Source: a virus
DNA length: 64,000 nucleotides
Reading direction: 5' to 3' (one strand)
IMG/VR virus record: IMGVR_UViG_3300032053_004772
Coordinates: 1-64,000 of that record
The position numbers were made by a program, and so were the translations under genes. The notes beneath the pieces were generated by a model that was not told where the DNA came from, made no database searches, and was given only the letters and a program-made list of their open reading frames with translations. Below, piece after piece: positions 4,525 to 46,582 of the stretch (positions are counted from its first letter, which is position 1; each line of letters opens with the position of its first letter).

Positions 4525-5093
4525 ACTTTCCGGTCGTCGATATCTTCGAGAGCATTCAGGGAGAGGGTTACTGGGTAGGTACCCCCTCCCTTTTTATTCG
4601 TCTTGCGGGATGCAATCTTGAGTGCACCTTCTGCGATACGAAGTTTGACGTGTACGAGGAGTGGTCGCTAGAACGGATTCTAGAGCGAGCAAAGAAGACG
4701 CTAACGACACACGTTGTGATCACGGGAGGAGAACCTACGATCCAACCGAACCTGCATCTACTCGTGCGAGCGTTGCGAGCACGCGGAAAGTACGTAGCGA
4801 TCGAAACGAACGGAACACAGGAGGGGTGGTTCGAAGCGAACTGGCTTACAGTATCCCCGAAGTCGATGGTGACTCGCGAAGATGTTGCGAGCGAGTTGAA
4901 GGTGCTGTGGATCTCTCCGCAGTTTGTAGAGAAGTGGTCAAAACGGAAGAGTCCTCGAGTACAACACAGATACGTGCAACCAGTGGAGATCGGAGGGAAG
5001 TTCATGGAGGTTCCAGCGATTCTGGAGTGGCTACGAAAGAATCCCGATTGGAGGTTATCCGTGCAGATTCACAAGGTACTGGGAATCAAATGA
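4521..5093 (+). CDS. queE: 7-carboxy-7-deazaguanine synthase (QueE)
   Basis: A radical SAM enzyme that rearranges 6-carboxytetrahydropterin to 7-carboxy-7-deazaguanine. Of the possible starts I chose GTG 4521, which overlaps the queD stop and gives a 190-residue protein beginning with the family-typical FPVVDIFESIQGEG. The [4Fe-4S] cluster cysteines are C31, C35 and C38 (CX3CX2C), followed by the SAM-binding VITGGEP. Length is normal for the family. The gene overlaps folE by ATGA. Confidence 0.95.
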   Translation: MNFPVVDIFESIQGEGYWVGTPSLFIRLAGCNLECTFCDTKFDVYEEWSLERILERAKKTLTTHVVITGGEPTIQPNLHLLVRALRARGKYVAIETNGTQEGWFEANWLTVSPKSMVTREDVASELKVLWISPQFVEKWSKRKSPRVQHRYVQPVEIGGKFMEVPAILEWLRKNPDWRLSVQIHKVLGIK

Positions 5094-5662
5094 CGACAGA
5101 ACACAAACTGCAGAACGTGCGGAATCTTCTTCTCGCGATCGGAGAGGATCCGGATCGGGAAGGTTTGAGGGATACACCGAAGCGAGTAGTACGATCGTGG
5201 AAAGAGCTTTTTGGAGGTTACTCGCAGGATCCTATGAGAGTGTTATCTCGAACGTTCTCCTCTGGTGGCTACGATGAGATGATCATACTACGTGAGATTG
5301 AGTTCTACTCTTGCTGCGAACACCACATGCAAGTTTTTTCAGGAAGAGCCTCGATTGCTTACGTACCGAAGGATCGAGTAGTCGGTGTATCCAAACTTGC
5401 TCGGGTGGTAGACATCTACGCTCGTCGGTTACAGATCCAGGAACGGTTGACGGTACAGATCGCGGATGCGATCGAGAAAGCGCTGGAACCGCAGGGTGTG
5501 ATGGTTGTGCTCGAAGCTCAACACCTTTGTATGCGAGCTCGCGGTGTGAAGCAGCAGCACTCACTAATGACGACCTCCGCTATACGAGGGATCTTTCGAG
5601 AGAATCCAGAGGTTCGGGAAGAGTTCTTGGATCTGCTGAAACGGGGAGAAGGAGAGCACTGA
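5090..5662 (+). CDS. folE: GTP cyclohydrolase I (FolE)
   Basis: Opens the GTP ring to make 7,8-dihydroneopterin triphosphate, the precursor consumed by QueD. The 190-residue protein has the zinc ligands Cys76 and His79 (CCEHHM) and Cys147 (CMRARGVKQ), plus the QERLT helix. The frame is open well upstream, but ATG 5090 is the right start because it overlaps the queE stop (ATGA) and yields family length. A phage copy avoids dependence on the host folate pool for making preQ0. Confidence 0.95.
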   Translation: MTTEHKLQNVRNLLLAIGEDPDREGLRDTPKRVVRSWKELFGGYSQDPMRVLSRTFSSGGYDEMIILREIEFYSCCEHHMQVFSGRASIAYVPKDRVVGVSKLARVVDIYARRLQIQERLTVQIADAIEKALEPQGVMVVLEAQHLCMRARGVKQQHSLMTTSAIRGIFRENPEVREEFLDLLKRGEGEH

Positions 5663-13707: not shown

Positions 13708-14658
13708 ATGGCTGAAACTTCTACCACCACGCTTACCGGTCTAGTAAAGACTGCGTATAGCAAAGCGGTTGAGTTCGCTTTCCAGCCCCAGTTGTTCTTT
13801 GCGCAGTTTGCGCAGAGTAAGAGCTGGTCGATTGCGGACCGCGACCCGATGCCGGGCGATACTGTCAGCTTCACCATCTTCGGCAATCTCGCTGTAGCCA
13901 CCGGTGCTCTGTCGGAGACGGGTGATCCGACTGCGGCCTCGATGTCCAAGACTCAGAAATCGATAACGATGTATGAGTACGGACAGCGGGTGACCACCAC
14001 GCAGAAACTTCGGACTCTGTCCTTCGCGAACATTGACATGGCTGCCGCGCGCGTTGTCGGAGACTCCATGGGGAAGTCTGTCGACCTTATCGCTCGTGCT
14101 GCTTTCGACGCCGGCACCGCTGCTGCGTACATCAAGTACGCCTCCGGTACTCAGGCATCTCACGTCCTGGACTCCGCAGGGAGCCGTCTGACCGCTGTTG
14201 ACGTTCGCTATGCCTTCAACCGGCTAGCAAGAAATAACGTCATCAAGCCGGACGGTCGATTCTATATCGCAGTTGTGCACCCGGATGTCGTGCATGATCT
14301 GCGAGCAGAGACCGGAGCTGGGTCTTGGCGGAATCCTAAGGAGTACGTCGAGCCTGCTCAGATCTACAACGGTGAAGTTGGAGAGTTCGAGGGTTTCCGG
14401 TTCATCGTTACCACGAACTCTAAGGTCGAGAACGGTGGAGCTTCCGGTGCCGTGGATCTGTACACCTGCTACTTCTTCGGGTATCAGGCGGTAGGGTTCG
14501 CGGAAGGTATCGCTCCAGCGATGGGAACCTCCGGACCGTTCGATGCCTTACAGCGGTTGGTGAACGTCTACTGGTACGGACTGATGGGATTTGGACCGCT
14601 CCGTGTTGAGTCGGTCTTCAAGTTCTATTGTTCCTCCAGCGTAGGCGATAACACCTAA
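13708..14658 (+). CDS. Major capsid protein, N4-gp56 family type
   Basis: A 316-residue protein resembling the N4-gp56 family of HK97-fold major capsid proteins: the N-terminal phrase TTLTGLVKTAYSKAVEFAF, a PGDTVSFTIFGNL strand, the YEYGQRVTTTQKLR region and VVHPDVVHDLRAE in the P domain. It is the expected abundant shell protein, and its codons look more optimised (GC-ending) than its neighbours, as for highly expressed genes. It follows the scaffold by 77 bases and is closed by a strong terminator. Confidence 0.85.
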   Translation: MAETSTTTLTGLVKTAYSKAVEFAFQPQLFFAQFAQSKSWSIADRDPMPGDTVSFTIFGNLAVATGALSETGDPTAASMSKTQKSITMYEYGQRVTTTQKLRTLSFANIDMAAARVVGDSMGKSVDLIARAAFDAGTAAAYIKYASGTQASHVLDSAGSRLTAVDVRYAFNRLARNNVIKPDGRFYIAVVHPDVVHDLRAETGAGSWRNPKEYVEPAQIYNGEVGEFEGFRFIVTTNSKVENGGASGAVDLYTCYFFGYQAVGFAEGIAPAMGTSGPFDALQRLVNVYWYGLMGFGPLRVESVFKFYCSSSVGDNT

Positions 14659-14682
14659 TTCGCTGCGTGACGAGACAAAAGA

Positions 14683-14721
14683 GAGGCGGCAGAATCTTCG
14701 GACTCTGACCGCCTCTTCTTT
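14683..14721 (+). terminator. Intrinsic terminator after the capsid gene
   Basis: Seven-bp GC stem GAGGCGG/CCGCCTC (14683-14689 with 14709-14715), extended inward by CAGA/TCTG with one bulged base, then TTCTTTTATT. It would end the scaffold/capsid transcript. Confidence 0.9.
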
Positions 14722-14940
14722 TATTAGGTCCTAAGGTCCTAAGGACCGAAGGTAAAGTGGTCTCGATGACAAGCGGTATTTCTCTTGAAAGGAACCGAGT
14801 GGCATTATCGCCGTCAGAACGCGGACGCAAGAAGTGCCACCGAAAATACCATCTCTTGAAAAAGGATACTGAATTAGAAGGCTATGGTTTCTACGAAACT
14901 TAGCATAGGGTATACGTCTCTTTAGAAGGAGAAACTGACC
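14722..14940 (+). promoter_or_regulatory. Structured leader before the glycosylation genes
   Basis: This 219-base gap has no plausible gene. It contains a GGTCCTAA direct repeat forming a hairpin (14727-14747) and a long-range stem GGTATTT/AAATACC (14775-14781 with 14844-14850). Inside that stem are GTGGCA/TGCCAC (14799-14804 with 14835-14840). A further hairpin lies around GTTTC-TAC-GAAAC near 14887-14899. TCTCTTGAAA occurs twice (14781, 14852). It could be a regulatory leader or small RNA. No known family or convincing promoter recognised. Confidence 0.4.
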
Positions 14941-17040
14941 GTGGATAGTCAGAAGAGAGCAACTGTATCTGTTTGTATTATTGCCAAGGATGAGGCAGCG
15001 ACAATCCAGCCGAGTCTGGAGAGTATTCGAGATCAAGTAGATGAAATCGTTGTCCTGGTGGACGACAGCACTACGGATGGTACTCTCTCGCTTGCGAAGA
15101 AGTATGCGGATGTAGTAAGCACGTTTCACTGGGAGAACGACTTCGCGAAGGCTAGAAATCTAGCGATCTCTCGCTGTACGAAGCAGTGGGTTCTCTCGAT
15201 GGATGCTCATGAGGTGTTGCATCCGAAATCGAAGCAGGTTCTTTCGGATCTGTTGAAAAGAGTTCTACCCGGTCTAGATCTCGCAGATACTCAGGTGTTC
15301 AGTGCTATGATCTACATGAACCCGGAAGGTACTGACATCGAGAGGTTGATTCCGACTACGTTCTTCTTGCAACCTCGACTGTTTCTGAACAACGGTAAGC
15401 ACAAGTACTACGGGCGAGTACATAACTGGTTGAACTCTGATCCGGACAGCGGATTGAAGCGCCCCGTGAACGAGCTCGTATTTGTTCACAAGAGGACGGA
15501 AGAAAACAGCGAAGTTCGGAAGAAGCAACGCGCTGTGATCAACATTCCGCAACTTCTTCTTGATGTCGAAGACATTAAGCGTGATAACGTTCCGAAGACG
15601 GATCCGAGGTATTCTCGTCCGTACTTCTATCTTGCGCAGACCTACTACGAGGTCGACGATCTAGATAACGCCTTAAAGCACTACAAGTTGTACTTGCAGA
15701 GATCGACATGGTTCGCGGAGCGAGCTCACGCCTATCTAATGCTTGGAGCGATCTATCAGCAGAGAAAGGATTATAAGAGCGCTCGTCAAGCGTTTCTGGA
15801 TGGTATGAAAGAGGACTGGGAGAGAGCGGAGTTTCCGTTGTCTCTCGGAAACATCTCGTGGGAACAGAAGGATTTGTATCAAGCGGAGCACTGGTGGAAA
15901 GCAGCTACCGAGATGAAGCCTCCGATGAACGGAATGTTCCTTGTCGGAGCTGCTTACACGTACGAACCGTACATGAAGCTCGCGATGCTGTACTCTACCG
16001 TGGGAGAGTGGTTCGAAGCAATTCAATCGGCTCAGAAAGCGATCTCTCTTGGTTGTACCAATCAAGACATGATCGGGAAGATCGACGTCTGGAAGACAAA
16101 AGCAGGGATGAAGCCGAACGCGAAGAACGTCATTCTGTACGATGAGAACAACGCGTTCACTTTTCTCGGAGGGATTCAATCTCATCTGAGTGAAAAAGGT
16201 TATAACGTAGCAACCTCGATAGTGTTCGATTCCGATGCCTCCAAGTGGGCCGATGTGATCTGGATTGAGTGGTGTGCCGCGAATCTGATGGAAGCTACCG
16301 CTCGAGAAAAGCCGGCGAATCAGAAATGGATCTGTCGATTGCATGGCTACGAGATCTTCAGCTCTACAAGAATGCTTCACACCGACTGGAGTAAGTTGGA
16401 TGTGTTGATGTTCGTTGCAGAGCACATTCGGCAAAGGTTTCTAGAGGTTTACTGGCTTCCAGACTCTGTGAAGACGGTCGTGATTCCGAACGGAATCGAT
16501 GTGAAGAGATGGAGTTTCGCAAAGCGAGAGTACTCCGACTCTAAGAATATCGGTATCGTGGGAATTCTTACAGATAAGAAGGGTCCTCAGATTCTTGCAA
16601 AGGTTATTCGACACTTCGCTGAGAAGCATCCAGAGTACAAGTTCTTGCTGCGATTCGATATACCACATCAACCGAGTGTAGAAGAGGGCGTGCTTCGATA
16701 CGATCTTCGCGACCTCCGAAATTGGGAATGGGTTCCTCGACAGGAATCTATGAACGTATGGATGGAGGATCTGAAGTACCTGATCTCTACTAGTACGTTG
16801 GAGAGCTTCAGTTACGTCGTCGGTGAGGCGATGACGAAGGGTATCAAACCCTTGATTCACGACTTCATGGGATCAAGAGATCTCTGGCCTCACGAGCTTA
16901 TCTGGAGAGATATAGAAGAGCTCGAGAAAGTGATTGCTGCTCCGTACGAATCTGACAAGTATCGACAGTGGGTAATCGATAAGTACTCTCTCGATAAGCA
17001 GATCGACAAGATCGTAGAACTGATCGAGGAGACGAAGTGA
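14941..17040 (+). CDS. Two-domain glycosyltransferase (GT2 + TPR + GT4-like)
   Basis: A 699-residue enzyme starting at GTG 14941 after AGAAGGAG. Residues 1-230 are a GT-A (family 2) domain with VSVCIIAKDEAATI, the LVDDSTTDGT nucleotide loop and SMDAHEVL where the metal-binding acidic motif lies. Residues about 220-370 are TPR-like helical repeats (YLAQTYYEVDDLDNALKHYK). From about 390 a GT-B (family 4-like) domain follows with VIPNGIDVKRW, GIVGILTDKKGPQ and a glutamate-containing SFSYVVGEAM donor site. It could add two sugars in sequence to a virion protein or glycan. First of six coupled genes. Confidence 0.8.
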   Translation: MDSQKRATVSVCIIAKDEAATIQPSLESIRDQVDEIVVLVDDSTTDGTLSLAKKYADVVSTFHWENDFAKARNLAISRCTKQWVLSMDAHEVLHPKSKQVLSDLLKRVLPGLDLADTQVFSAMIYMNPEGTDIERLIPTTFFLQPRLFLNNGKHKYYGRVHNWLNSDPDSGLKRPVNELVFVHKRTEENSEVRKKQRAVINIPQLLLDVEDIKRDNVPKTDPRYSRPYFYLAQTYYEVDDLDNALKHYKLYLQRSTWFAERAHAYLMLGAIYQQRKDYKSARQAFLDGMKEDWERAEFPLSLGNISWEQKDLYQAEHWWKAATEMKPPMNGMFLVGAAYTYEPYMKLAMLYSTVGEWFEAIQSAQKAISLGCTNQDMIGKIDVWKTKAGMKPNAKNVILYDENNAFTFLGGIQSHLSEKGYNVATSIVFDSDASKWADVIWIEWCAANLMEATAREKPANQKWICRLHGYEIFSSTRMLHTDWSKLDVLMFVAEHIRQRFLEVYWLPDSVKTVVIPNGIDVKRWSFAKREYSDSKNIGIVGILTDKKGPQILAKVIRHFAEKHPEYKFLLRFDIPHQPSVEEGVLRYDLRDLRNWEWVPRQESMNVWMEDLKYLISTSTLESFSYVVGEAMTKGIKPLIHDFMGSRDLWPHELIWRDIEELEKVIAAPYESDKYRQWVIDKYSLDKQIDKIVELIEETK

Positions 17041-18026
17041 TGAAGTTCACCATCGGGTTCGATCAGAGCGATCGTGCGAAACTCTTCGGTTACTGGACGG
17101 ATATCCTTAACACTCATCAGTGGAGTGGAGGAAAGTACTGTGCTCTCTTTGAAGAGAAGTGGTCGAAGTATACAGAGGTTCCGTCCGTAGCATTAGCGAA
17201 TTGGAGTAGCGCTGCCAAGATTCTGGTAGACTACTTTGGATTGAAGGGAAAGACGGTACTTGTGCCGTCGAACACGTTTATGGCTACCGCTGCGTGTTTC
17301 CTTAAAGAAGGTTGTCAAGTCGAGTTCGTCGATTGCAACAAAGACGATCTGTGTATGTCACTTGACGATCTAGGTAGGAAGAACCGGCAGTTCAAAGCCG
17401 ACGCAGTTGTAGTTGTGCACATCGGCGGACACATCGCGTTCCAGATCGCAGAGATTGCACAGTGGTGCAAAGAGAGAGGTGTGTTGCTGATTGAGGATTG
17501 CGCTCACGCTCACGGTGGTTTGTACCATGGAAAACGAGCCGGTTCGTGGGGTGATTGCGGAATCTACTCCTTCTATGCAACCAAGACGATATCCACCGGA
17601 GAAGGTGCGATGTTAGTCTCCTTTCGGAACGATCTACTCGAGTACGCTCGTGTTTATCGAGATTACGGTAAACCGACGTACGAGTTCCTGGGACTGAACT
17701 GCAGGATTTCGGAGTTCAACTGCGCACTGGGTTGTGTCGCGACGGACTCTCTGCAGAACATAGTCGACTGGAAGAACGAGTACGCGATCAAGCACTTGAA
17801 CGCTCAGTTTCCCAACCGTCTGATACTCCCTTCAGGAATGGTGTCGGGTCTGTACAAGTACATCGTATTCCAACAGATTGAGAAGTCGACCGGAAAGGTG
17901 TACTCGGACCCCTGTCACTTCTACATCAAGAAACCGTACGAGCTACCCAACACCGACTGGGTTTCTAAGAATCACTGGTGTGTACCTCTCTATTTTCGAG
18001 GTGAAGAAATGAGAGGTGACGCATGA
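17040..18026 (+). CDS. DegT/DnrJ/EryC1-family sugar aminotransferase
   Basis: A 328-residue PLP enzyme that transaminates nucleotide-linked keto-sugars to amino sugars. Visible features are NWSSAAKIL near the phosphate site, VPSNTFMATAACF, IEDCAHAHGG (the PLP-ring-binding Asp/His region) and YSFYATKTISTGEGAM, containing the Schiff-base lysine. It is somewhat shorter than the usual ~370 residues, with a reduced C-terminus. ATG 17040 overlaps the preceding stop. It supports synthesis of an amino-sugar donor for the neighbouring glycosyltransferases. Confidence 0.88.
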   Translation: MKFTIGFDQSDRAKLFGYWTDILNTHQWSGGKYCALFEEKWSKYTEVPSVALANWSSAAKILVDYFGLKGKTVLVPSNTFMATAACFLKEGCQVEFVDCNKDDLCMSLDDLGRKNRQFKADAVVVVHIGGHIAFQIAEIAQWCKERGVLLIEDCAHAHGGLYHGKRAGSWGDCGIYSFYATKTISTGEGAMLVSFRNDLLEYARVYRDYGKPTYEFLGLNCRISEFNCALGCVATDSLQNIVDWKNEYAIKHLNAQFPNRLILPSGMVSGLYKYIVFQQIEKSTGKVYSDPCHFYIKKPYELPNTDWVSKNHWCVPLYFRGEEMRGDA

Positions 18027-18946
18027 AGATTCTAGTTACTGGTGGAGGCGGTTTTATCGGTTCGCATCTCGTGGATAAGCTTCTAGCTCGCGGCAACGAG
18101 GTGTTCGTATTCGATCGCTCTATTCCTCCGAAGCCTCAATTCGGTGTGAAAGATTGGGGTCATAAAAACTGGTGGTATGGAGATCTGCTAACTGCGGAAT
18201 CGGTGCTACAGTGTGTAGAGGAACACAATCCTGATGTGATCTATCACCTCGCTGCGATTGCAGACGTGAATGAGGTGTTCGCGAAACCGGTAGAAGCTAC
18301 TCGGGTGAATGTGTTGTGTACTCAGCACATTCTAGAGGCTGCTCGAGCGGTGAAAGCTCACGTGATCTACGCAAGTACGATCTGGGTTTACAGCGACACG
18401 ATCGAATCGTCTGTAGATGAGTCTTCTCCGATATCGTTTCCGAGTCATCCGTATACCGTTGGGAAGTACGCTGGAGAGATGCTATGTCACGCGTACTTAA
18501 AGACGTACAACGTTCCGTACACGATCCTGCGCTTCGGCATTCCGTACGGTCCTCGAGCTCGTTCAGCAGCTGTGATCCCTTCTTTCGTTGCTAAGGCGTT
18601 CTCTGGACAGAACATCTCTATTACGGGAGATGGTTCGCAGTGGAGAGAGTTTGTTTACGTTGAGGATCTCGCGGACGGATGCGTTGCTGCTTTACGCTCT
18701 GAAGCAGTGAATGAGGTCTTCAACCTCAGTGGATCCGAGCGAACAACGATCCGAGATCTTGCGTTAATGGTTCAACATCTTGCTCCTTCTCCAATTCAGG
18801 TGTTCTTTACGGAGAGTAGGGCAGCCGACTTTAGGGGTGTGAAGGTCAGTAACTTCAAAGCAGAGAGGTTGCTAGAGTGGAAACCTCACACACCGTTTGT
18901 TGAGGGATTGCAGAAGTACATTGACTGGTATCGCGAGACACTTTAA
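18023..18946 (+). CDS. NAD-dependent nucleotide-sugar epimerase/dehydratase
   Basis: A 307-residue extended short-chain dehydrogenase. The Rossmann motif TGGGGFIGSH is at residues 7-16, and the catalytic YxxxK appears as YTVGK after ASTIWVYSD. The substrate-side IPYGPRARSAAVIPSF segment is typical of UDP-glucose 4-epimerase-like enzymes. It likely makes or interconverts the keto-sugar used by the preceding DegT enzyme. It overlaps its neighbours by 4 bases and 1 base respectively, so it is translationally coupled. Confidence 0.88.
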   Translation: MKILVTGGGGFIGSHLVDKLLARGNEVFVFDRSIPPKPQFGVKDWGHKNWWYGDLLTAESVLQCVEEHNPDVIYHLAAIADVNEVFAKPVEATRVNVLCTQHILEAARAVKAHVIYASTIWVYSDTIESSVDESSPISFPSHPYTVGKYAGEMLCHAYLKTYNVPYTILRFGIPYGPRARSAAVIPSFVAKAFSGQNISITGDGSQWREFVYVEDLADGCVAALRSEAVNEVFNLSGSERTTIRDLALMVQHLAPSPIQVFFTESRAADFRGVKVSNFKAERLLEWKPHTPFVEGLQKYIDWYRETL

Positions 18947-19827
18947 TGAAACTCGCGATTGTGTGTCGCGGTAATAGGCACTTTCTAGAGCCTCTTGAAA
19001 AACACTGGCGTCAGAAATACACTGTTGTAGAGGATCTGCAACTAGCTGATGTGGTCTATGTTGAGTGGGCAAACGAACAGTGCATTCGGGTTTCTCGAGA
19101 GGTTAACAAACGTAAGGTTGTCGTTCGAGTACTCGGCTCTGAGTACTATCAGTGGTTCTGGGCTAGATGCAATCGGGAGACGATTTACTCGTTTATCACA
19201 GAGAATCCTGAATGCGATCTATCGCCGTTTGACTCCGTGCACATTCCAGAGCCGATCAACACCGACTTCTGGATACCAACTGGTGACGCTGCAAAAAATA
19301 CCATAGTACATGTTGGTACTCTTGATCACAATAAAGGACAGTTGAACTTACTGCGAATTCTTGCTGAGAGATCTCGAGAATTTGACGAGGTACTGTTCGT
19401 AGGAAACTCGCAACCGAGAGATCCTGAGGGTGCTGTGAACGCTCGAAAGATTCTAACGCAGGTGATCTATCTAGCGAAAGACCTGCATCTTCTTAACGTT
19501 CGCTTCGTAGGACAGCTACCCCCCGATCGATTACGAGAGTTGTACAACTCTGCTCGAGTGGTAGTTAGTGTTTCGCAGAACGAGGGATGTCAGACCTCAG
19601 TGCAAGAGGCTTTGAGTTGCGGTCATAGTACGGTGTTGGTGCAAAACTGGATGGGTTCTCGGCAACTTTACCCTTCAGAGTGCATCTTCACAACCTCTTC
19701 GGAGTTCTGGAGGGTGATTGACCTGCCACAGCTTCGAAATCGACAGTGGGCTCTGGATCACTTCTCGTATCCGGTTGTTTTACCTAAATTAGACGCAGAA
19801 CTAGAGAGTGCGGCAAGCTGTTTATGA
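18946..19827 (+). CDS. GT4-like glycosyltransferase
   Basis: A 293-residue GT-B fold enzyme resembling the C-terminal domain of the 699-residue protein encoded upstream. Both share a VEW..N / IEWCAAN motif near the start, INTDFW / IDVKRW after the linker, and a MGSRxLxP phrase near the end. The donor-binding region reads HVGTLDHNKGQ and NEGCQTSVQEALSCG, whose glutamate is the usual sugar-nucleotide ligand. Probably arose by duplication within the cassette. Overlaps the radical SAM gene by four bases. Confidence 0.8.
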   Translation: MKLAIVCRGNRHFLEPLEKHWRQKYTVVEDLQLADVVYVEWANEQCIRVSREVNKRKVVVRVLGSEYYQWFWARCNRETIYSFITENPECDLSPFDSVHIPEPINTDFWIPTGDAAKNTIVHVGTLDHNKGQLNLLRILAERSREFDEVLFVGNSQPRDPEGAVNARKILTQVIYLAKDLHLLNVRFVGQLPPDRLRELYNSARVVVSVSQNEGCQTSVQEALSCGHSTVLVQNWMGSRQLYPSECIFTTSSEFWRVIDLPQLRNRQWALDHFSYPVVLPKLDAELESAASCL

Positions 19828-21062
19828 AAATTGCGTTCTTGTACATGAACATAGGTAGTGGAGTGGGAGTCGGATCTGGCTACGTATTCGCATCGATTCC
19901 CGACGAGCACGAGCGACACTTCTTCAACGTACCTCAATATCAGACTGCGTACGAGACTACGAGGTGGCTGCTGATTTCGAACTACGATCTGGTGATGATC
20001 TCGACGTCTACACTATTCGCTCCGCTCGCATTTCAAATTGCAGTTGCTGTACACTCTCACGTTCCTGTACTGCTTGGTGGCATTCACGCGATTATCTTCG
20101 GAGGTGAGCTGCTCCGAGATCATCCAGAATTGGATTACGTCTGTACTGGAGAAGGAGAGACCTTCGTTCAAGAGTTTCTGAAGAAGTGGAAAACTCCAGA
20201 GTTCTTCGAGATTCCAGGATTAGCCTATCGTAAAGGCACAGAGATCGTAGTAAATCCTGAAGGACCTCTAGAAGATCTCTCGAAGCTTCCTGAGTTTCCG
20301 TGGAAGGCCTTTCCGAAGTTGATGAACGAGCGCGGATTCATCTACTTTCACGTTGCTCGCGGTTGTAGATTCGCTTGTACTTACTGCGGAAACAGCGTCT
20401 GTCTTCGGAAGTACGGTCGCGCATACTTGCGACAGCGTCCTATCTCGAAAGTGATCGAGGAGATGCAGCACTTTCGAGACACCTATCATCCGAAGTTGTT
20501 CTTCTTTGAAGTTGAGGAGATGTTCTCCGAGCTCGATTGGGCTACGGAACTCTTTCAGGCGGTGAAGGATCAGGTAGGCGTACCGTACGGATGTATGGCT
20601 CGTTCGGAGAGCTTGAACGCGGATCTAGTCTCTTTCATGAAACGAACCGGCTGTGAGTACGTTGGAATTGGTGTAGAGTGCGGTGATGAGGACTATCGTC
20701 GATCTGTGCTGAAGCGATTTACGACTACGCAGGAAATCCTGGAGTCCTTCCGGCTTTGTAATGAGGCCGGCTTCCTTACGACCAGTTACAACATGATCGG
20801 TTATCCTACCGAACGAGATGAAGAAATCTGCCGGACTACGATTGCACTGAATCGAGAGCTGAATCCTGGAATCTTTCAGGTGACGTGGTTCTATCCGTTT
20901 CCAGGAACGGTGCTCGGTGATTACTGTCGAGAGAACAATCTGATCGACTTGAACAAGATTGGTCAGATGCACACTTATCACGGACAGGGTTCCGTGCTGA
21001 AAATGCATGGCGCAAAGCCAGCGGATCCACACGAATACCTTCGGTCACTAGGAGGATGGTAG
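19824..21062 (+). CDS. B12-binding-type radical SAM enzyme
   Basis: A 412-residue protein with an N-terminal cobalamin-type Rossmann domain (PVLLGGIHAI, CTGEGE; no clear DxHxxG, so B12 contact may be base-off) and a radical SAM core. Cluster cysteines are C181, C185 and C188 in ARGCRFACTYCG. The class commonly methylates unreactive carbons or makes C-C bonds on sugars, lipids and natural products. Within this cassette a sugar or glycan methylation/rearrangement is likely. Radical SAM enzymes other than QueE are uncommon in phages of this type. Confidence 0.85.
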   Translation: MKIAFLYMNIGSGVGVGSGYVFASIPDEHERHFFNVPQYQTAYETTRWLLISNYDLVMISTSTLFAPLAFQIAVAVHSHVPVLLGGIHAIIFGGELLRDHPELDYVCTGEGETFVQEFLKKWKTPEFFEIPGLAYRKGTEIVVNPEGPLEDLSKLPEFPWKAFPKLMNERGFIYFHVARGCRFACTYCGNSVCLRKYGRAYLRQRPISKVIEEMQHFRDTYHPKLFFFEVEEMFSELDWATELFQAVKDQVGVPYGCMARSESLNADLVSFMKRTGCEYVGIGVECGDEDYRRSVLKRFTTTQEILESFRLCNEAGFLTTSYNMIGYPTERDEEICRTTIALNRELNPGIFQVTWFYPFPGTVLGDYCRENNLIDLNKIGQMHTYHGQGSVLKMHGAKPADPHEYLRSLGGW

Positions 21063-21959
21063 ATGGGTGATTTGATCACAATCGTGATCCCAACGTATAA
21101 CGAGCGAGAAGACATGCTCAGAAAAGCGATTGAGACGGTTCTCAATCAGACGTATCCGGACATCGAACTGATTCTGGTAGATGACGGATGTACCGATAAC
21201 ACTCCAGAGATTCTGCAGGAGTATGCGGTAAGAGATAGTCGCGTTCGGGTGTTTCGTAGAGAACGAGATTCGGCCTTTCGCTCAATTGCTCAAGCCTTCA
21301 ATATCGGTTTAGAGAACGCTCGCGGTAAATGGTGGCATCACGATGCCGCTGACTGTTGGCACGAGTTAGATTGGGCGAAACGCTGTATGGACTTCATCAG
21401 AGGACGTGAGAATGAGGTTCTAGGTGTTCATACCAACTGGTGGGTGCATCACTTCGACGGAACAGTAGAGTTCGTTAACACCGGAGAGCGTTGGAGAGGC
21501 GATTGGTCGACCTTCCAGAACTATCAAGTGTACGACTCCTTCGGTGGAATGCTGTTCCGGATGGACGTCGCTAAGAAAGCAGGTCTTTGGGATCCTCGCT
21601 TTCCTAGACACCAAACTCGTGAGTGGACGTACAGAGTGTTGCGTCAGGGAGATCACGTCTACCTTCCGAGAGCGTTGTGGCACTTTGTCTTTCACGAACC
21701 GGATCAGATGAAACGTCGCGCATCTGTGAAGTATCGGATTCTCGCAGATCTGAAGAACGGCATCGATCCGGAGTGCGACCTTAGGATCTCTCTCGGTTCT
21801 GAGGACGGACGTTACGCGGTACTGGATGCGTGTAGAGCATTCTTCACCGATCCAGTTTGGGAGCCAGAACGTTTATCTGGAGTTACGAAGGATAGAATGG
21901 ATCGCTTGTTAGCGGTCTGTAACGAGGAGGCGAGTGAGTCGTGGCACAAGCAACCCTGA
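21063..21959 (+). CDS. Family 2 glycosyltransferase
   Basis: A 298-residue GT-A enzyme: TIVIPTYNERED, LVDDGCTDNTPEI for UDP-sugar binding, then HHDAADCWH in the place of the DxD metal site. The acceptor region FGGMLFRMDVAKKAGLWD and the catalytic-base segment HQTREWTYR follow. GGAGG precedes ATG 21063. Last gene of the glycosylation cassette; it overlaps the connector gene by 19 bases, showing the cassette is now fully integrated into the late operon. Confidence 0.85.
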   Translation: MGDLITIVIPTYNEREDMLRKAIETVLNQTYPDIELILVDDGCTDNTPEILQEYAVRDSRVRVFRRERDSAFRSIAQAFNIGLENARGKWWHHDAADCWHELDWAKRCMDFIRGRENEVLGVHTNWWVHHFDGTVEFVNTGERWRGDWSTFQNYQVYDSFGGMLFRMDVAKKAGLWDPRFPRHQTREWTYRVLRQGDHVYLPRALWHFVFHEPDQMKRRASVKYRILADLKNGIDPECDLRISLGSEDGRYAVLDACRAFFTDPVWEPERLSGVTKDRMDRLLAVCNEEASESWHKQP

Positions 21960-22363
21960 CCACTGTTGATTTACTCAAGCGCGATCTTCCGATGTTGAAG
22001 GATACTCCTGTCGGAGAAGCTGAACTTCAGAACAACATCGACGACGCTATCGATGTTGTCTACGACGACCTCTCAAAGTTCGTCGACTGGGATGAAGTCG
22101 AAGCTCTTTCAGCCGTTCCGCGTGTACTACAGCGTCTTGGACGCTATCAAGCAGCGATGCTTACGATCATCCGAAACTTTCACAGCGATGAGATCATGAT
22201 CGGAAGTGGTGAAGGCGAGAACTCCGTCTACAATCACTACAAGGGATTGTACACAAAGTTGCTCGAGCAGATCTCTTCCGGGGATATACGAATCCTTGAC
22301 GCAGAGAACGAGGAGTTGGAGCCGGAGGTACATCGACCACTCGGACCAGGGAGAATCATCTAA
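21941..22363 (+). CDS. Putative head-tail adaptor protein
   Basis: A 140-residue helical protein starting at GTG 21941. It has an N-terminal TTVDLLKRDLP segment and helices around ALSAVPRVLQRLGRYQAAML, like small connector proteins that bind under the portal. It is placed first in a connector / completion / terminator / tube order. No catalytic motif, so the function is inferred from position and size. Confidence 0.6.
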   Translation: MAQATLTTVDLLKRDLPMLKDTPVGEAELQNNIDDAIDVVYDDLSKFVDWDEVEALSAVPRVLQRLGRYQAAMLTIIRNFHSDEIMIGSGEGENSVYNHYKGLYTKLLEQISSGDIRILDAENEELEPEVHRPLGPGRII

Positions 22364-36290: not shown

Positions 36291-36608
36291 ATGGCTGAGA
36301 TTCTAGTATTCGCTCGGGATTCTACCCATCCCGATCCAAAAAAGGATAAGAACATAATGTATAAGCGAGGTGATCCCATTGTTGCAAAATCAGATGGACA
36401 TAAATGGGGAAAAATGGAATGTCTTCCTGATTTTGTCGTATTGAAAATTCCCGATATTCATGTGAAAGATGTGGAATCCTATTGCCATACAAAATATCAA
36501 GGAATGGAGATTATCTTGCGTCGGGAATATAAAATTGATTTAGATGATCTATTATTAGATACAAAAATTAAATCTAAAAATCTACAAAATATTTTTAGGA
36601 AAAAATAA
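36291..36608 (+). CDS. AT-rich hypothetical protein, 105 aa
   Basis: Start of a block whose codons end mostly in A or T, unlike the rest of the window. The 105-residue protein begins MAEILVFARDS and ends in a lysine-rich stretch. Two cysteines are scattered. No known motif. It shares an AT bias with the beta-helix genes that follow, so these may have been acquired together. Confidence 0.55.
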   Translation: MAEILVFARDSTHPDPKKDKNIMYKRGDPIVAKSDGHKWGKMECLPDFVVLKIPDIHVKDVESYCHTKYQGMEIILRREYKIDLDDLLLDTKIKSKNLQNIFRKK

Positions 36609-37552
36609 TGGCTTCAGTTAGTATAATTGATACAGATGGCACTGGTGATTATACCACTATAAGTGCATGGATAGCAGCAAAAGCTGGTGTTTTATCTGGA
36701 GTCACCGAGGGCCAGTGTCGAGGTGCTGATCTTTTGACGGAAACTGCTCAAATAGATATAACTGGATTCTCTAGCAATAGTGCAGCTAATTATGTGAAAC
36801 TTACTGTATTGACAGGTTCTCGGCACAACGGAGTTCCCGGTGCTGGATTCAGAGTAACCGTATCTTCTGGAAACTATGTTTTGATTAACAGAGAGGCTTA
36901 TACAAGAGTTGAATATTTAGAATTGTATGGAGGTTTGGAAGGAGCTTTATATCCCGATGTGGGTGGAGCTACAAATGTACAAGTTAGTTATTGTTTGGCA
37001 AAAGGTGGAAATTCAGGAGTTTATTATTCTGAGGCTGCTGGTTCGGTGACTTTCATAAATTGTATTGCTTATGATGGTATACAAGGATTTGCTTTAATAG
37101 CTGCTGGAGCATGGACTCTTTATAATTGTACTACTGTAGATATCACCAATGTCGGTTATCGATTAAATGATGCTAGCGGCACAATGGTTGTTATGAATTG
37201 TATTGGGTATAACTCGACTAATTATGATTTTTTAGAAACCGCAGGAATGATGACGACAAGTTATTGTTTGAGCAAAGATGCTACAGCAGATGATAATGGA
37301 GCAACAGGAGCGCAAATTAATAAAACACTTACGTTCAATAATGCCGCGGCTAATGACTTCAGACTGGCATCTACCGACACAGATGCAATAAATAATGGTG
37401 TTGATACACCGAAGACTATATTCACTGACGATATTGATGGAACAGCTCGACCAGTTGGTGCATGGGATATTGGAGCGGATGAATATGCTGCGGCAGATAG
37501 TTCTGTGGTTCCTCAAGCAATGTCTTATTATAGGAGACTGCGGAGCGTGTAA
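36608..37552 (+). CDS. Beta-helix (pectate-lyase-like) protein, 314 aa
   Basis: The repeated short strands with N-C-T/I ladders (VTFINCIAY, WTLYNCTTV, MVVMNCIGY) predict a right-handed parallel beta-helix. The final GTARPVGAWDIGADEY phrase is a C-terminal motif often following such helices in secreted or surface proteins. Probably a tailspike-like or receptor-interacting virion protein. Codons are AT-rich. ATG overlaps the previous stop; its own stop overlaps the next ATG. Confidence 0.7.
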   Translation: MASVSIIDTDGTGDYTTISAWIAAKAGVLSGVTEGQCRGADLLTETAQIDITGFSSNSAANYVKLTVLTGSRHNGVPGAGFRVTVSSGNYVLINREAYTRVEYLELYGGLEGALYPDVGGATNVQVSYCLAKGGNSGVYYSEAAGSVTFINCIAYDGIQGFALIAAGAWTLYNCTTVDITNVGYRLNDASGTMVVMNCIGYNSTNYDFLETAGMMTTSYCLSKDATADDNGATGAQINKTLTFNNAAANDFRLASTDTDAINNGVDTPKTIFTDDIDGTARPVGAWDIGADEYAAADSSVVPQAMSYYRRLRSV

Positions 37553-38994
37553 TGGCAACATATTATGTAGACTTTGCAACCGGAGTAGATACCAATAATG
37601 GTACTTCCACCGAGACTCCGTGGGAACACTGTCCAGGAGATGTAAATGCTACAAATAATGCTGCTATAACTCTATCTGTGGGAGACATTATTTATTTCAA
37701 AGGTGGTATTTCTTATGTGGGGAAAATAAGTACAAATGCGAATGGTACTGCTCTAGCATATATTCAATATCTATCAGGAGACTTGGTATCTTGGGGAACT
37801 GGTCGTGGGAAAATAGATAGCGGGAATACTCTCATTCATGGATTCTTCATTAGTCATGCTTATTTAAGATTCAAAGGATTAGAAGTTTGCAATGTAGCAT
37901 ATACTGCCGATTCAAGTTCGGCATTTTTTCTCAATTCAGGAGGAAGTCCGTCCTATATTGAAATCCAAGAAAACTATATTCATGACATTCCCCGCGCTCC
38001 CGGAAATTCCGATACGGGTTATGGAGTTGAAATTGATGCTGGGCATCATATTCTAGTAGAAAAAAACATTATTGAGGATTGCGGGGAGAAAGCAATTGAG
38101 GCAACGTATAATTGTACCTATGTAACTATTCGATACAATTATATCTCAGGAGGTTATTCTCACAGTATAGTAATTAGCGGTCAACATTGTGACACATATA
38201 ATAATATTATTACTCTAAATGGTTCAACGGAAACACAAGCATATGGAATAAAATTGGATTCCGGGACGAATGCCAGTGAATATAATAAAGTTTATAATAA
38301 TATCATCTATGATTGCCGATGCGGTATTGGGATTCTTAATGGTCGATTGAATGAGATTTATCATAATATCGTTTTTTATACAAGTCAAGGAACTCGACAT
38401 ACAGCAGAAGCTGACGCCGTAGGATTATCAATGTATGATGATGGCACAAGTGCAATAGATGTAGAAAACAATAAAATATACAACAACATATTTTATTATT
38501 CTGGGAAAATGAATGGAACAGATGCTGTGGAAATGTTTTTCAAATCAAATATTGGAAATAATAATGAGGTGAAAAATAATATATTTTATTATGATGCTTC
38601 TGATACTGATACCTTATTTCGTTATAATGATGGTTCATATTCCTATCATGATTTAACATGGTTTGAGGGAACGAATGGATTTTCTGCGGTGGGAACGGGC
38701 AATATAGCAAGTGGTAATAGAGTGTCGGCTCCAGGCTTTGTTGGGGGAACTGGGGCAACATTATTTGCTGTTTGTCCGACTGGTTTCGCAATTGATTGGA
38801 CTCCCAATAATGACAATTTGCAGTTATTGGTGGACTCGTCCGCAATAGATGCAGGACTTGCATTGGCGGCCGATTTCAATATAGATATCGACGGCATCAT
38901 TCGTCCCCGGGGCGCTGATTGGGATATCGGCGCGTATGAATATGATAGCGGAATAACTCCTACCTTTAAGCAAGGAACGAGATTGAGATTCTAG
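37552..38994 (+). CDS. Beta-helix protein, 480 aa, paralog of the preceding gene
   Basis: 480 residues with N-x-I/V-Y-N ladder repeats (YNKVYNNIIYDC, NNKIYNNIFYYS), implying a long parallel beta-helix. The start MATYYVDFATGVDTNNG resembles polysaccharide lyase/hydrolase tailspike beginnings, and the same RPRGADWDIGAYEYD ending is shared with the preceding gene. It could bind or degrade host polysaccharide. No active site can be assigned. The strong AT bias suggests recent transfer. Confidence 0.7.
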   Translation: MATYYVDFATGVDTNNGTSTETPWEHCPGDVNATNNAAITLSVGDIIYFKGGISYVGKISTNANGTALAYIQYLSGDLVSWGTGRGKIDSGNTLIHGFFISHAYLRFKGLEVCNVAYTADSSSAFFLNSGGSPSYIEIQENYIHDIPRAPGNSDTGYGVEIDAGHHILVEKNIIEDCGEKAIEATYNCTYVTIRYNYISGGYSHSIVISGQHCDTYNNIITLNGSTETQAYGIKLDSGTNASEYNKVYNNIIYDCRCGIGILNGRLNEIYHNIVFYTSQGTRHTAEADAVGLSMYDDGTSAIDVENNKIYNNIFYYSGKMNGTDAVEMFFKSNIGNNNEVKNNIFYYDASDTDTLFRYNDGSYSYHDLTWFEGTNGFSAVGTGNIASGNRVSAPGFVGGTGATLFAVCPTGFAIDWTPNNDNLQLLVDSSAIDAGLALAADFNIDIDGIIRPRGADWDIGAYEYDSGITPTFKQGTRLRF

Positions 38995-42859: not shown

Positions 42860-43465
42860 ATGGGAAAGATTCTGTTCATCGGGGCTCACACAGATGACGT
42901 GGAATTCGGTTGCGGTGGTACAATCGCAAAGATGATCGAGCGCGGAGAGGAAGTATCTGTCGCTGCTCTCTCTTGGGGATCCTCTCTGTATCCTGAGATG
43001 CACCTAGATCAGGAGTTTCAGAACTCGATGCAGATTTTCGGTGTGAAGGCGACGTTTCTAGGAGACTATCAGATTCGTCTCTTTCCACTTAGTCGACATA
43101 AGATTCTGCAGCATTTGCTGCTAACTCGAGAGCAGGTGCAGCCGGACGTTGTGTTCTTTCCATCCGTTGTCGATATACATCAAGATCATCAGACAGTTTA
43201 TCAAGAGAGTCTTCGAGCGTTTAAGAGAGTCACACACTTCAACTACGAGTTGTTCTGGAACTGTCCAGACTTTCACCCTCAGTACTACGTCGAGTTGAGC
43301 GAGGAGAACTTCACGACTAAAGTGAGAGCGCTGGAGTGTTACGTCTCACAGAAGAATCGTGACTACTTTGATCTGCACAAGATTCGGGTGTGGGCTGAGT
43401 TTCGAGGAGCACAAGTAGGTAAGCAACTTGCCGAAGCGTTTGAAGTAGGAAAGCTTCTCGGATGA
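42860..43465 (+). CDS. PIG-L/LmbE-family deacetylase
   Basis: A 201-residue metal-dependent N-deacetylase. AHTDDVEFGCGGT at residues 8-20 is the family form of the metal-binding AHPDDE motif (with Thr for Pro and Val-Glu following), and DIHQDHQTVY near residue 100 supplies further ligands. Family members remove acetyl groups from GlcNAc-type sugars and related molecules. First of three coupled enzymes with an ATP-grasp and a PHP protein, so it may prepare a free amine that is then ligated. Confidence 0.8.
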   Translation: MGKILFIGAHTDDVEFGCGGTIAKMIERGEEVSVAALSWGSSLYPEMHLDQEFQNSMQIFGVKATFLGDYQIRLFPLSRHKILQHLLLTREQVQPDVVFFPSVVDIHQDHQTVYQESLRAFKRVTHFNYELFWNCPDFHPQYYVELSEENFTTKVRALECYVSQKNRDYFDLHKIRVWAEFRGAQVGKQLAEAFEVGKLLG

Positions 43466-44520
43466 AACTGCCTCGAGTCTTAATCACGGGGGTAGGTGCT
43501 CCCGGTACTAGGGGTACGATCTTCTGTCTTCAGAAGAACTTCGATCGGCAGAAGGTGTTTATCCTTGGTACAGACTCCGACGTTAGCGCAGTAGGTCGAC
43601 ACTTTGTGGATAGGTTCTTCACGATTCCGTATGCTGAGACTGGAATGCGATATCTGAAAGCTCTGCAGGAGTTATGTGAAGAGCATCGAGTTGACGTGAT
43701 ACTTCCTCAGAACACTGCGGAGTTGCTCATCCTTGCCTGTCATCGAGAGTCATTCAAAAGAACTCGCATCTGTGTTTCTAGCGGTGATGCGATCTGTAAG
43801 TCGAACCACAAGATTCGACTGTTACAGGAGTTTCAGAGGGCGAGTCTTCCTTTTCCGACGTACACAGTTGTTACAAATGAAGCCGAGTTGATACAGGGTT
43901 TAGCCGGATTAAGCTACCCGAGAGAGCAAGTCGTAGTAAAGATTCCAGACGGTTCTGGAGGAAGAGGTGTTCGAATTATTTCGTCTCGACCTTATAACTG
44001 GCACAGTTTCGTGCATGAGAAGCCGAACGCTCTAGAGTGGAACTTAGATCAGCTACTTAAAGTTGCGCGTGAAGGTTTTCCTTCTCCTCTCTTACTAACA
44101 GAGTACCTTCCTGGGAGAGAGTACTCTGTTGACGTGTTTAGAGGACTGAGTACAGAGATTGCGATACCTCGAGTTCGACTACGAATCCGTAGTGGTATCA
44201 CGTTTGACACTGAGATCGTTCGGCACGAAGAGATCGAGCGACAGTCTTTGATTGCTGCTCGTGCAATCGATCTTCGGTACGCGTTCGGCTTTCAGTTTCG
44301 AGAGAATGCTCAAGGTAAAGCGCGTGTCATAGAATGCAATCCGAGAGTGCAGGGTACGATGGTAGCCAGTTACTTTGCAGGTGCAAACATTCCGTGGATG
44401 GCAATACGAGAGGCTCTCGGTCTTACGCAGCATCCAGAGGTTCAGATTCAGACTGCGCGTTTCACTCGATATTGGGGAGGAGTTGGACTTGTCCACAACG
44501 AACGGCCGATCAGTATCTAG
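43462..44520 (+). CDS. ATP-grasp ligase (carbamoyl-phosphate-synthase-like)
   Basis: A 352-residue protein with an N-terminal pre-ATP-grasp Rossmann part (VLITGVGAPGTRGT). The ATP-grasp domain proper follows: VVVKIPDGSGGRGVRII (glycine-rich loop), LLTEYLPGREYSVDVF and VIECNPRVQGTM with the Mg2+-binding Glu/Asn. The class forms an amide or peptide bond through an acylphosphate. It overlaps the deacetylase by four bases. Likely substrates are a sugar amine or peptide, but none is proven. Confidence 0.82.
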   Translation: MKLPRVLITGVGAPGTRGTIFCLQKNFDRQKVFILGTDSDVSAVGRHFVDRFFTIPYAETGMRYLKALQELCEEHRVDVILPQNTAELLILACHRESFKRTRICVSSGDAICKSNHKIRLLQEFQRASLPFPTYTVVTNEAELIQGLAGLSYPREQVVVKIPDGSGGRGVRIISSRPYNWHSFVHEKPNALEWNLDQLLKVAREGFPSPLLLTEYLPGREYSVDVFRGLSTEIAIPRVRLRIRSGITFDTEIVRHEEIERQSLIAARAIDLRYAFGFQFRENAQGKARVIECNPRVQGTMVASYFAGANIPWMAIREALGLTQHPEVQIQTARFTRYWGGVGLVHNERPISI

Positions 44521-45130
44521 CGTTTTCGGTAGGAGATACCTGTTTCATGTACACTCTCAGTTTGCAGATGGATCGGCTTCCGTGGAGGACTACCTTCGAC
44601 TCGCACAAGCGCACGATCTAGAGACCGTCACGATTTTGGAACATGCACGTCGCATACCGTCTTACAGTGTACAGCGATATGCAGACACCATTCGAGAGAC
44701 CTCGAATCGGTTAGGGATCAGAGCGCTAGTAGGATTTGAGGTTAAGCTGGATTCGGATGGTTCGTTGGACATCAACGATGAGACACTGGCTCTCGCGGAT
44801 GTAGTGGGATTAGCGGTTCACAAGTTTCCGAATGACTTCATGATGTTTATGAAGGCGTTCTCCTCGGTACTACGATTGTGCAGCGACAAGATTCGAGTGT
44901 GGGTTCATCCGGGACTATGGTTCGTTCGGAGGGGAATTCTCGAGGAGAAGTTTTTGGTGTATACAGCGATGTTGAATATCGCTGTAAGTGAGGGTTGGTT
45001 TATAGAGTACAATCTGAAGTACAACTTGATCCCGAGATCGTGGCGGAAACTTGTACATCGGAGTAAGTTGGTAACCGGCGTTGATGCTCACTCTATAGAT
45101 GATGTAAGAAAGCATATTCATCTACTATAG
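44489..45130 (+). CDS. PHP-domain metal-dependent phosphoesterase
   Basis: Start set at TTG 44489 because GGGGAGG lies eight bases upstream; an upstream in-frame ATG would overlap the ATP-grasp gene heavily. The 213-residue product opens with FHVHSQFADGSAS, the PHP motif 1 (normally DLHxHTxxSDG), and has VGFEVKL, VWVHPG and a final GVDAHS, matching later metal ligands. Such proteins hydrolyse phosphoesters or phosphates of nucleosides and sugars. Last gene before terminator T45183. Confidence 0.7.
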   Translation: MSTTNGRSVSSVFGRRYLFHVHSQFADGSASVEDYLRLAQAHDLETVTILEHARRIPSYSVQRYADTIRETSNRLGIRALVGFEVKLDSDGSLDINDETLALADVVGLAVHKFPNDFMMFMKAFSSVLRLCSDKIRVWVHPGLWFVRRGILEEKFLVYTAMLNIAVSEGWFIEYNLKYNLIPRSWRKLVHRSKLVTGVDAHSIDDVRKHIHLL

Positions 45131-45182
45131 CTCTTTATAACTTATCTCTCAGTGGCTTGTACTATTATTACCGGGAGAAACT

Positions 45183-45213
45183 CAGAGATGTTAACAAACA
45201 TCTCTGTTTTTTT
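45183..45213 (+). terminator. Strong intrinsic terminator before P2
   Basis: A perfect 10-bp stem (45183-45192 with 45197-45206, CAGAGATGTT against its complement) closed by an AACA tetraloop and followed by seven T residues. It ends the late transcript. The rest of the gap 45131-45452 holds promoter P2 and a stretch 45214-45340 that may be a decayed gene. Confidence 0.93.
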
Positions 45214-45381
45214 GGTTATCGGGTGAGGGATCGTCTCGGTAATATCTTCGTGGTACAAAAAGTGAATGTGTCGGGTCGCTCTATTCACCTTGAATTGCTA
45301 AAGCCAGGGTGTTACTATGGTAAATATAAATATAGCGGTTTCGATAGAAAACTTAGAAAAAATAAAAATAATTCTTCTTTT

Positions 45382-45442
45382 CCTCTTGATTTTTCTTTCA
45401 ATCTATATTATAATATAATTGTAGACTAAGAAGAAAGAGAAG
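45382..45442 (+). promoter_or_regulatory. Promoter P2 (sigma70-like), copy of P1
   Basis: TTGATT at 45386-45391, 17-bp spacer, TATAAT at 45409-45414. The 61 bases 45382-45442 are identical to 6336-6396. It drives the amidoligase operon and lies directly downstream of a terminator. Confidence 0.9.
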
Positions 45443-45452
45443 AGGGAGAGCG

Positions 45453-46340: not shown

Positions 46341-46345
46341 GGAGG

Positions 46346-46582
46346 ATGAAGTTGAAGATTCGGTGGAAAGATCATACGATCAAAGGTACGCCAGAGGAGA
46401 TCGTGCGAACGTTGAGAACGGAGATTGCTTGGGACGCACCAAAGACGGATCAGAGGTATATGAACGAGGTTGCCGATCGGGTGCTCTATTTGTACGGAAT
46501 GATGATACCGACCGACGATCCAGAGGAGTTTCTGCAGGCGCTGGCAGCGATCCAAGAGGTGAAAGTGAAGGAGGACGAGTAG
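46346..46582 (+). CDS. Small acidic protein between amidoligase and GATase
   Basis: A 78-residue protein. AGGAGG abuts ATG 46346 too closely, so TTG 46352 (76 aa) is the likelier start. Acidic, helical, ending in KVKEDE, with W and G near the start. It has no recognised fold, but its position and high acidity make it a candidate acceptor or carrier for the amidoligase (inference). Confidence 0.6.
   Translation: MKLKIRWKDHTIKGTPEEIVRTLRTEIAWDAPKTDQRYMNEVADRVLYLYGMMIPTDDPEEFLQALAAIQEVKVKEDE

Follow-up and report, generated by a model that had tools for sequence, protein, structure and literature searches.

The first 64 kb of the virus record IMGVR_UViG_3300032053_004772 (86,773 bases; these 64 kb are called the window below) carry, between the major capsid gene and the open reading frame (ORF) at the connector position, a cassette of six glycosylation genes (14941-21959). 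The cassette is probably an island for cytosolic protein glycosylation whose target is a virion protein; the major capsid protein would be the most likely acceptor. We favour a virion protein because the first enzyme is homologous to GmaR and SunS, homologues of it lie in bacterial flagellin loci, the cassette is co-inherited with the capsid gene, and it is absent from phages with a different head module. An earlier note on this DNA, made from the letters alone, had proposed that three transferases decorate the capsid; the glycosylation cassette and a protein acceptor, probably a virion protein, are borne out by this indirect evidence, whereas the capsid itself is a choice that we infer.

Organization of the cassette

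All six ORFs listed in the earlier note were recovered (14941-17040, 17037-18026, 18023-18946, 18946-19827, 19824-21062, and 21063-21959), and the entire block of genes lies on one strand. The junctions between the cassette ORFs overlap or abut (TGATG, ATGA, TAATG, ATGA, and TAGATG), and the six genes are translationally coupled to one another. The second start is more likely the ATG at 17040 than that at 17037, because of the alignment with relatives. The features of the region are as follows.

13708..14658, plus strand: major capsid protein, 316 aa (phrog_1357, major head protein, 5e-56)
14677..14722, plus strand: intrinsic-terminator-like hairpin with U-rich tail (sequence, fold, and placement in relatives)
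14723..14940, plus strand: remainder of the intergenic leader (alignment with the related contig L002; no Rfam family)
14941..17040, plus strand: GT2-TPR-GT4 fusion, 699 aa, first gene of the slot (Pfam, profile matches, and Foldseek)
17040..18026, plus strand: DegT-type pyridoxal-phosphate aminotransferase (PF01041, 1e-52)
18023..18946, plus strand: extended SDR nucleotide-sugar epimerase/dehydratase/decarboxylase (PF01370, 1e-55)
18946..19827, plus strand: GT4 glycosyltransferase (Pfam)
19824..21062, plus strand: radical SAM enzyme with a weak B12-binding-like N-terminal domain (PF04055, 5e-17; CxxxCxxC)
21063..21959, plus strand: GT2 glycosyltransferase, last gene of the slot (PF00535, 1e-27; homologues of 46-65% identity precede the connector in relatives)
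21941..22363, plus strand: connector-position ORF, downstream flank of the slot (position alone)

The Pfam search supported the GT2, TPR, DegT, epimerase, GT4, and radical SAM assignments of the earlier note; the B12-binding match that it had also called was under the cut-off (24.7 versus 32.1 bits), and the GT4 part of the fusion was just under it (24.8 versus 26.4 bits). The overlap into the connector gene was likewise found, the connector-position ORF sharing 19 nt with the last GT2 gene. This ORF had no PHROG or Pfam match, and its name reflects position only. It is followed by Neck1 (phrog_26), an ORF at the tail-terminator position, a phrog_290 'minor tail' protein that occupies the tail-tube position, and the tape measure gene; downstream roles for which no family was matched were assigned by gene order. 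No close DNA match to the phage was found among phage records. A foreign composition of the cassette was considered and dropped, as the GC content of its genes (0.476-0.508) is inside the range of the other genes of the phage (tape measure protein, 0.479; polymerase, 0.484; major tail protein, 0.529), and therefore recent acquisition is not indicated.

A conserved slot with a variable middle

Relatives were collected by IMG/VR scans with the capsid protein, the last GT2 enzyme, the fusion, and the tail-tube-like protein as queries, together with one scan of bacterial and archaeal genomes. After near-identical contigs were collapsed, nine phages remained whose contigs extend past a capsid gene related to this one (65-75% identity; the window/L002, L003/L004, L005, L006, L008, L009, L010-L013, L021/L028, and L099). 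The GT2-TPR-GT4 fusion is the next cassette gene after the capsid gene in nine of the nine; in L099 a NUMOD3 endonuclease gene sits between the two. Ten loci reach the connector, including L016 and L019, whose contigs begin inside the fusion gene, and a GT2 gene of the same family stands immediately before the connector in nine of them (with a gap of about 300 nt in L021), the exception being L006, where about 3 kb of small ORFs intervene.

Between these ends the content varies. The middle of the slot is empty in L005, L013, and L021; it consists of DegT in L008, of GT4 in L016 and L019 (with additional small ORFs in L019), of GT4, epimerase, an unknown gene, and a second GT2 gene (a duplicate of the last one) in L009, of DegT, PIG-L, formyltransferase, and epimerase in L003, where the contig stops, and of DegT, radical SAM, GT4, and unknown genes in L099. 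These comparisons suggest a stable core of two genes, the filling between which is interchangeable. Insertion within the head module, which had been described as unusual, is in this phage group the fixed arrangement, with its first and last genes conserved, and the search for phages with the same head genes and no cassette, proposed at the same time, returned none among the nine capsid relatives.

Several neighbouring features of the relatives and of the head region were recorded. In L099 (7476-9698), the capsid gene is split near residue 277 and is followed by the NUMOD3 endonuclease gene, possibly an intron or a homing-endonuclease insertion; this 88.7-kb contig was binned in a Thermoplasmatota metagenome-assembled genome (MAG) and is probably viral. 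In L021 (922-5870), genes for a DNA methylase, a sulfotransferase-like protein, an SDR protein, an AMP-binding protein, and a hexapeptide acetyltransferase lie directly upstream of the scaffold and capsid genes. Between head genes of the window lies a longer ORF with a GTP cyclohydrolase I domain (4661-5662), and L009 has one too.

The first enzyme and its flagellin-linked homologues

A profile of the fusion built from six sequences matched the GT2 domain of GmaR (3.7e-25), SunS (1.9e-22), and ThuS (8.5e-15), and also the TPR region of O-GlcNAc transferase (OGT). The predicted model of the fusion was of moderate quality (pLDDT 72, pTM 0.52). Foldseek retrieved SPINDLY (SPY), OGT, SunS, and ThuS (7msk) with it; the whole-chain TM-scores were low, which is not surprising in a multidomain model of such confidence. 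By these matches the fusion appears to be GmaR/SunS-like, with a GT2 domain homologous to those of GmaR and SunS followed by TPR; its score was far below the equivalog cut-off of the SunS family TIGR04195 (58 versus 350 bits). As in GmaR of Listeria and the SunS/ThuS peptide S-glycosyltransferases, the GT2 catalytic domain is followed by TPR-like helices, but unlike in these proteins an additional GT4 domain is present. The GT domain of GmaR puts GlcNAc on flagellin, and its TPR domain has been proposed as the flagellin binder (PMC9638930); in Caulobacter, it is the TPR domain of FlmG that binds flagellins, and efficient cytoplasmic glycosylation depends on this domain (PMC7591256). We propose from these homologies that the fusion may be the acceptor-binding, first-sugar transferase.

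Homologues of the fusion or of its GT4 half were found in six flagellin-bearing loci of sequenced genomes (Orenia, Paenibacillus, Brevibacillus, two Clostridia-type MAGs, and one Thermotogae MAG). In the Brevibacillus and Paenibacillus loci, where Pfam confirmed flagellin and FliD together with FlaG or FliS, the order is flagellin, GT2-TPR, GT4, nucleoside diphosphate (NDP)-sugar dehydrogenase, Gfo/Idh/MocA, acetyltransferase, DegT, FlaG, and FliD. The flagellin glycosylation islands of Geobacillus, which lie between flagellin and flaG, have GT2, GT4, DegT, and epimerase genes (PMC5109656). The phage cassette shares with such islands (Geobacillus, PMC5109656; Brevibacillus, L107; Paenibacillus, L102) the GT2-TPR and GT4 homologues, DegT, and epimerase, a content that varies between strains, and the position adjoining a gene whose product is a highly abundant structural protein, and the phage also encodes an NDP-sugar dehydrogenase, a Gfo/Idh/MocA protein, and an acetyltransferase. 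It differs from them in that the neighbour is a capsid gene and not a flagellin gene, GT2-TPR and GT4 form one protein, a radical SAM gene is included, and the dehydrogenase, Gfo/Idh/MocA, and acetyltransferase genes are elsewhere in the genome. The layout would be that of a flagellin island with the capsid gene in the place of flagellin, homology being apparent for part of the cassette.

Co-inheritance with the head module

Pairwise identities of the capsid protein and the fusion are correlated (r 0.70, Mantel p 0.001), as are those of the fusion and the last GT2 enzyme (r 0.91), and a tree of the GT4 region places the fusions from these capsid relatives in a single clade (SH-aLRT 97). In two phages with another capsid family (phrog_1005; L033 and L037), a 32% identical GT2-TPR-GT4 protein is encoded about three small genes past the capsid gene, so that the capsid-side placement recurs there. 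In L150-L155, L157, and L158, whose tail-tube-like proteins are 38-48% identical and several of which also have recognisable neck or tail-terminator genes, the upstream region held no alignable capsid gene and no cassette-like glycosyltransferase, and in Streptomyces phage FlowerPower and Bacteroides phage BS162P1 (capsid identities, 37% and 29%) no glycosyltransferase is annotated at that place.

These data also bear on a variant in which the glycan is placed on a tail, fibre, or neck protein instead of the capsid. The place of the slot, with head genes on one side and connector genes on the other, and the glycosylation of the tail tube as well as the capsid in mycobacteriophages (PMC12363180, PMC12619734) would agree with such an acceptor; however, homologous Neck1, tail-terminator, and tail-tube-like proteins occur together with another head in phages that have no cassette, those phages being more distant ones, and we regard this variant as unlikely, if the most serious of the alternatives to a capsid acceptor.

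Terminator and leader behind the capsid gene

The terminator that the earlier note placed before the cassette was found as a bulged hairpin with a U-rich tail (14677-14722) after the capsid gene. The fold of the 287-nt intergenic strand was better than that of 200 of 200 shuffles (z -3.3). A G+C-rich hairpin and then a T-rich stretch directly follow the capsid gene in all 11 loci compared (window included), of which eight passed a strict terminator scan (shuffle rates 0-12%); bulged stems were seen in the fold for the window, L002, and L003. A generic promoter/terminator scan did not outperform shuffled sequence and failed to pick up the bulged hairpin. The comparison suggests a terminator after the capsid gene that is conserved in position, the sequences differing, and the hairpin is likely a partial terminator. 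Retention of a capsid-side terminator would fit the usual need for much more capsid than downstream product. The structured leader, claimed as a further element of the cassette, did not hold up, since about 140 nt or half of it (window 14746-14880) are missing from L002 despite 99% identity of the capsid proteins, and leaders are short in most relatives. Nothing in the leader reached the gathering score of an Rfam family, a single chance miRNA match being far under it.

Middle genes and the sugar

The region of the catalytic Lys of DegT, SFYATKTISTGEG, is conserved in an alignment of four slot homologues. This is the only DegT of the genome, and it is nearer to PseC/LegC models and other sugar transaminases than to WbpE. 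The best Protein Data Bank match of the epimerase was UDP-glucuronate decarboxylase (1.7e-43). The GT4 enzyme, which resembles the C-terminal part of the fusion and is also found in the slots of L009, L016, L019, and L099, is proposed to extend the chain. The radical SAM protein best matched AprD4 (6.6e-13) and HpnJ (1.4e-30), all scores being below the family cut-offs. AprD4 and HpnJ act on amino sugars, and the likeness may point to glycan or sugar tailoring. In the slots of other relatives, this gene was found in L099 only (25% identity), and a scan of viral contigs with the protein gave no relative; its structure model (pLDDT 47) was too poor for a fold search.

Further candidate sugar genes lie apart from the cassette, three of them within genome positions 75886-80135 (L088:1387-5636).

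42860..43465, plus strand: PIG-L deacetylase, out of the slot (PF02585)
75886-76812 of the genome, outside the window: Gfo/Idh/MocA protein (closest to UDP-GlcNAc 3-dehydrogenase models)
76805-77284 of the genome, outside the window: left-handed beta-helix acetyltransferase (closest to the WlbB-type 3mqg, 2e-39)
78831-80135 of the genome, outside the window: NDP-sugar dehydrogenase (passes TIGR03026)

The route to UDP-2,3-diacetamido-uronate (WbpA/B/D/E) comprises a 6-dehydrogenase, a 3-dehydrogenase, an aminotransferase, and an N-acetyltransferase, and all four of these enzyme classes are encoded in the phage genome. The L021 record has the dehydrogenase, MocA, and acetyltransferase and no DegT, the L009 record has MocA and acetyltransferase, and the matches in the L099 MAG fall on numbered contigs, which may or may not belong with the phage-like contig. 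In other phages, NeuB or sulfotransferase genes accompany DegT and this epimerase, and PIG-L, out of the slot in the window, is within it in L003. One definite sugar was dropped as unprovable: the partners of DegT and the epimerase vary, DegT of L003 occurs with a formyltransferase, and the sets of the relatives are partial. The class of the sugar is likely, by these homologies, an amino sugar. A sugar amine made by DegT and the epimerase and altered by the radical SAM enzyme, as suggested previously, is possible; against it, three phages have neither of the two sugar genes, and the dehydrogenase, Gfo/Idh/MocA, and acetyltransferase genes suggest that a different sugar is possible.

Pairs of DegT and epimerase genes also occur near sulfotransferase, NeuB, PIG-L, or radical SAM genes in L163 (3338-16142) and L164 (3718-15851), whose content suggests a resemblance to phage nonulosonic-acid-like islands. 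In the window, the PIG-L gene is clustered with genes for a PylC-like ATP-grasp protein, an amidoligase, and a class-II glutamine amidotransferase (42860-47338), which would seem to be a distinct module for tailoring small molecules or peptides. Two neighbouring beta-helix proteins (36608-38994) have a GC content of 0.39-0.40 versus about 0.50 and are likely exchanged tail or depolymerase-like genes.

Host surface or phage DNA as the target

Instead, the target could be a structure on the host surface (flagellin, S-layer, or polysaccharide) that the cassette alters in the course of infection, for instance to prevent superinfection. The bacterial homologues in flagellin islands, and the PHROGs label 'GtrB-like O-antigen conversion' for GT2 relatives, are in line with this. 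Surface-polysaccharide conversion normally needs membrane proteins, however, and in a hydropathy scan none of the cassette proteins showed a convincing membrane segment, the radical SAM protein having a single borderline window (1.77). No polytopic flippase, oligosaccharyltransferase, or GtrA-like candidate was identified in the genome, a 235-aa four-segment protein near genome position 67.7 kb having no role assigned, and by the same scan the membrane flippase and membrane-anchored transferase of gtrABC-type O-antigen conversion were not found. The slot also has a fixed place after the capsid terminator within the head operon and is co-inherited with the capsid gene. We consider a host-surface target improbable, and more so than a tail or neck acceptor. 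Sugar hypermodification of phage DNA bases against restriction is very improbable: phage glycosyltransferases can glycosylate DNA (as stated in literature cited in PMC12619734) and the genome has GTP cyclohydrolase, amidoligase, and glutamine amidotransferase genes, but no thymidylate-synthase-fold gene (for a hydroxymethylated pyrimidine) was found in the record, which is possibly incomplete, the cassette is in the head module away from replication genes, and the homology is of the GmaR/SunS type.

Proposed function

In the mechanism that we propose for a capsid glycosylation island, the acceptor, the sugar, the order of transfer, the read-through, and the biological purpose are all what we infer from sequence. 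The TPR domain of the fusion would bind the acceptor and its GT2 domain would put the first sugar on side chains; the GT4 domain of the fusion, with the separate GT4 and GT2 enzymes, would then extend or cap the chain. DegT, epimerase, radical SAM, NDP-sugar dehydrogenase, Gfo/Idh/MocA, acetyltransferase, and PIG-L proteins would make or tailor the amino sugar. Late transcription might read through the capsid terminator at a reduced level to give few enzymes per many capsid subunits, and exchange of the middle genes, with the end transferases kept, might make the glycan differ among related phages.

Several points weigh against this interpretation. Many bacterial homologues of the fusion, mainly in the Bacillus licheniformis group, are away from flagellin genes. 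GT2 and GT4 folds act on polysaccharides as well, and the acceptor could be a host surface protein or flagellin. The phages that have no cassette are also more distant kin, so that linkage to the head is confounded with kinship. The whole case is built on sequence comparison, and the glycan is predicted from genes.

Virion glycosylation has precedents. The mycobacteriophages Che8, Corndog, and Myrna are described as encoding transferases that glycosylate their capsid and tail-tube proteins (Freeman 2023, cited through PMC12363180 and PMC12619734). Phage-encoded glycosyltransferases (Che8 gp110 and Corndog gp38 in the mycobacteriophages) and a capsid or tail acceptor, the latter proposed here on gene content, are common to both, and a dedicated sugar-synthesis module within the head operon is found here, unlike in the mycobacteriophages; no mycobacteriophage matches were obtained to the fusion and the last GT2 enzyme (1e-5) or to the radical SAM protein. 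Chloroviruses and Megavirinae likewise have virus-encoded sugar-nucleotide pathways and capsid-glycosylating transferases (PMC9614988), but they are eukaryotic viruses. As phage virion glycosylation is already known, the cassette would be a further version of it. We propose more tentatively, and at somewhat below an even chance, the fuller picture of a capsid glycosylation island with invariant end transferases, a swappable sugar-making middle, and the enzyme stock of flagellin islands, which would produce capsid serotypes and use an amino sugar modified by radical SAM chemistry.

Few phages, most of them mycobacteriophages, have been found to bear glycans on their particles; in mycobacteriophages these glycans influence recognition by antibodies (PMC12363180, PMC11256854). 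With its ends fixed and its middle variable, a conserved slot of this kind would offer a genetic way to study the purpose of phage glycans, because natural two-gene and six-gene versions are available to compare, and it suggests that flagellin-type glycosylation enzymes may serve another self-assembling protein shell.

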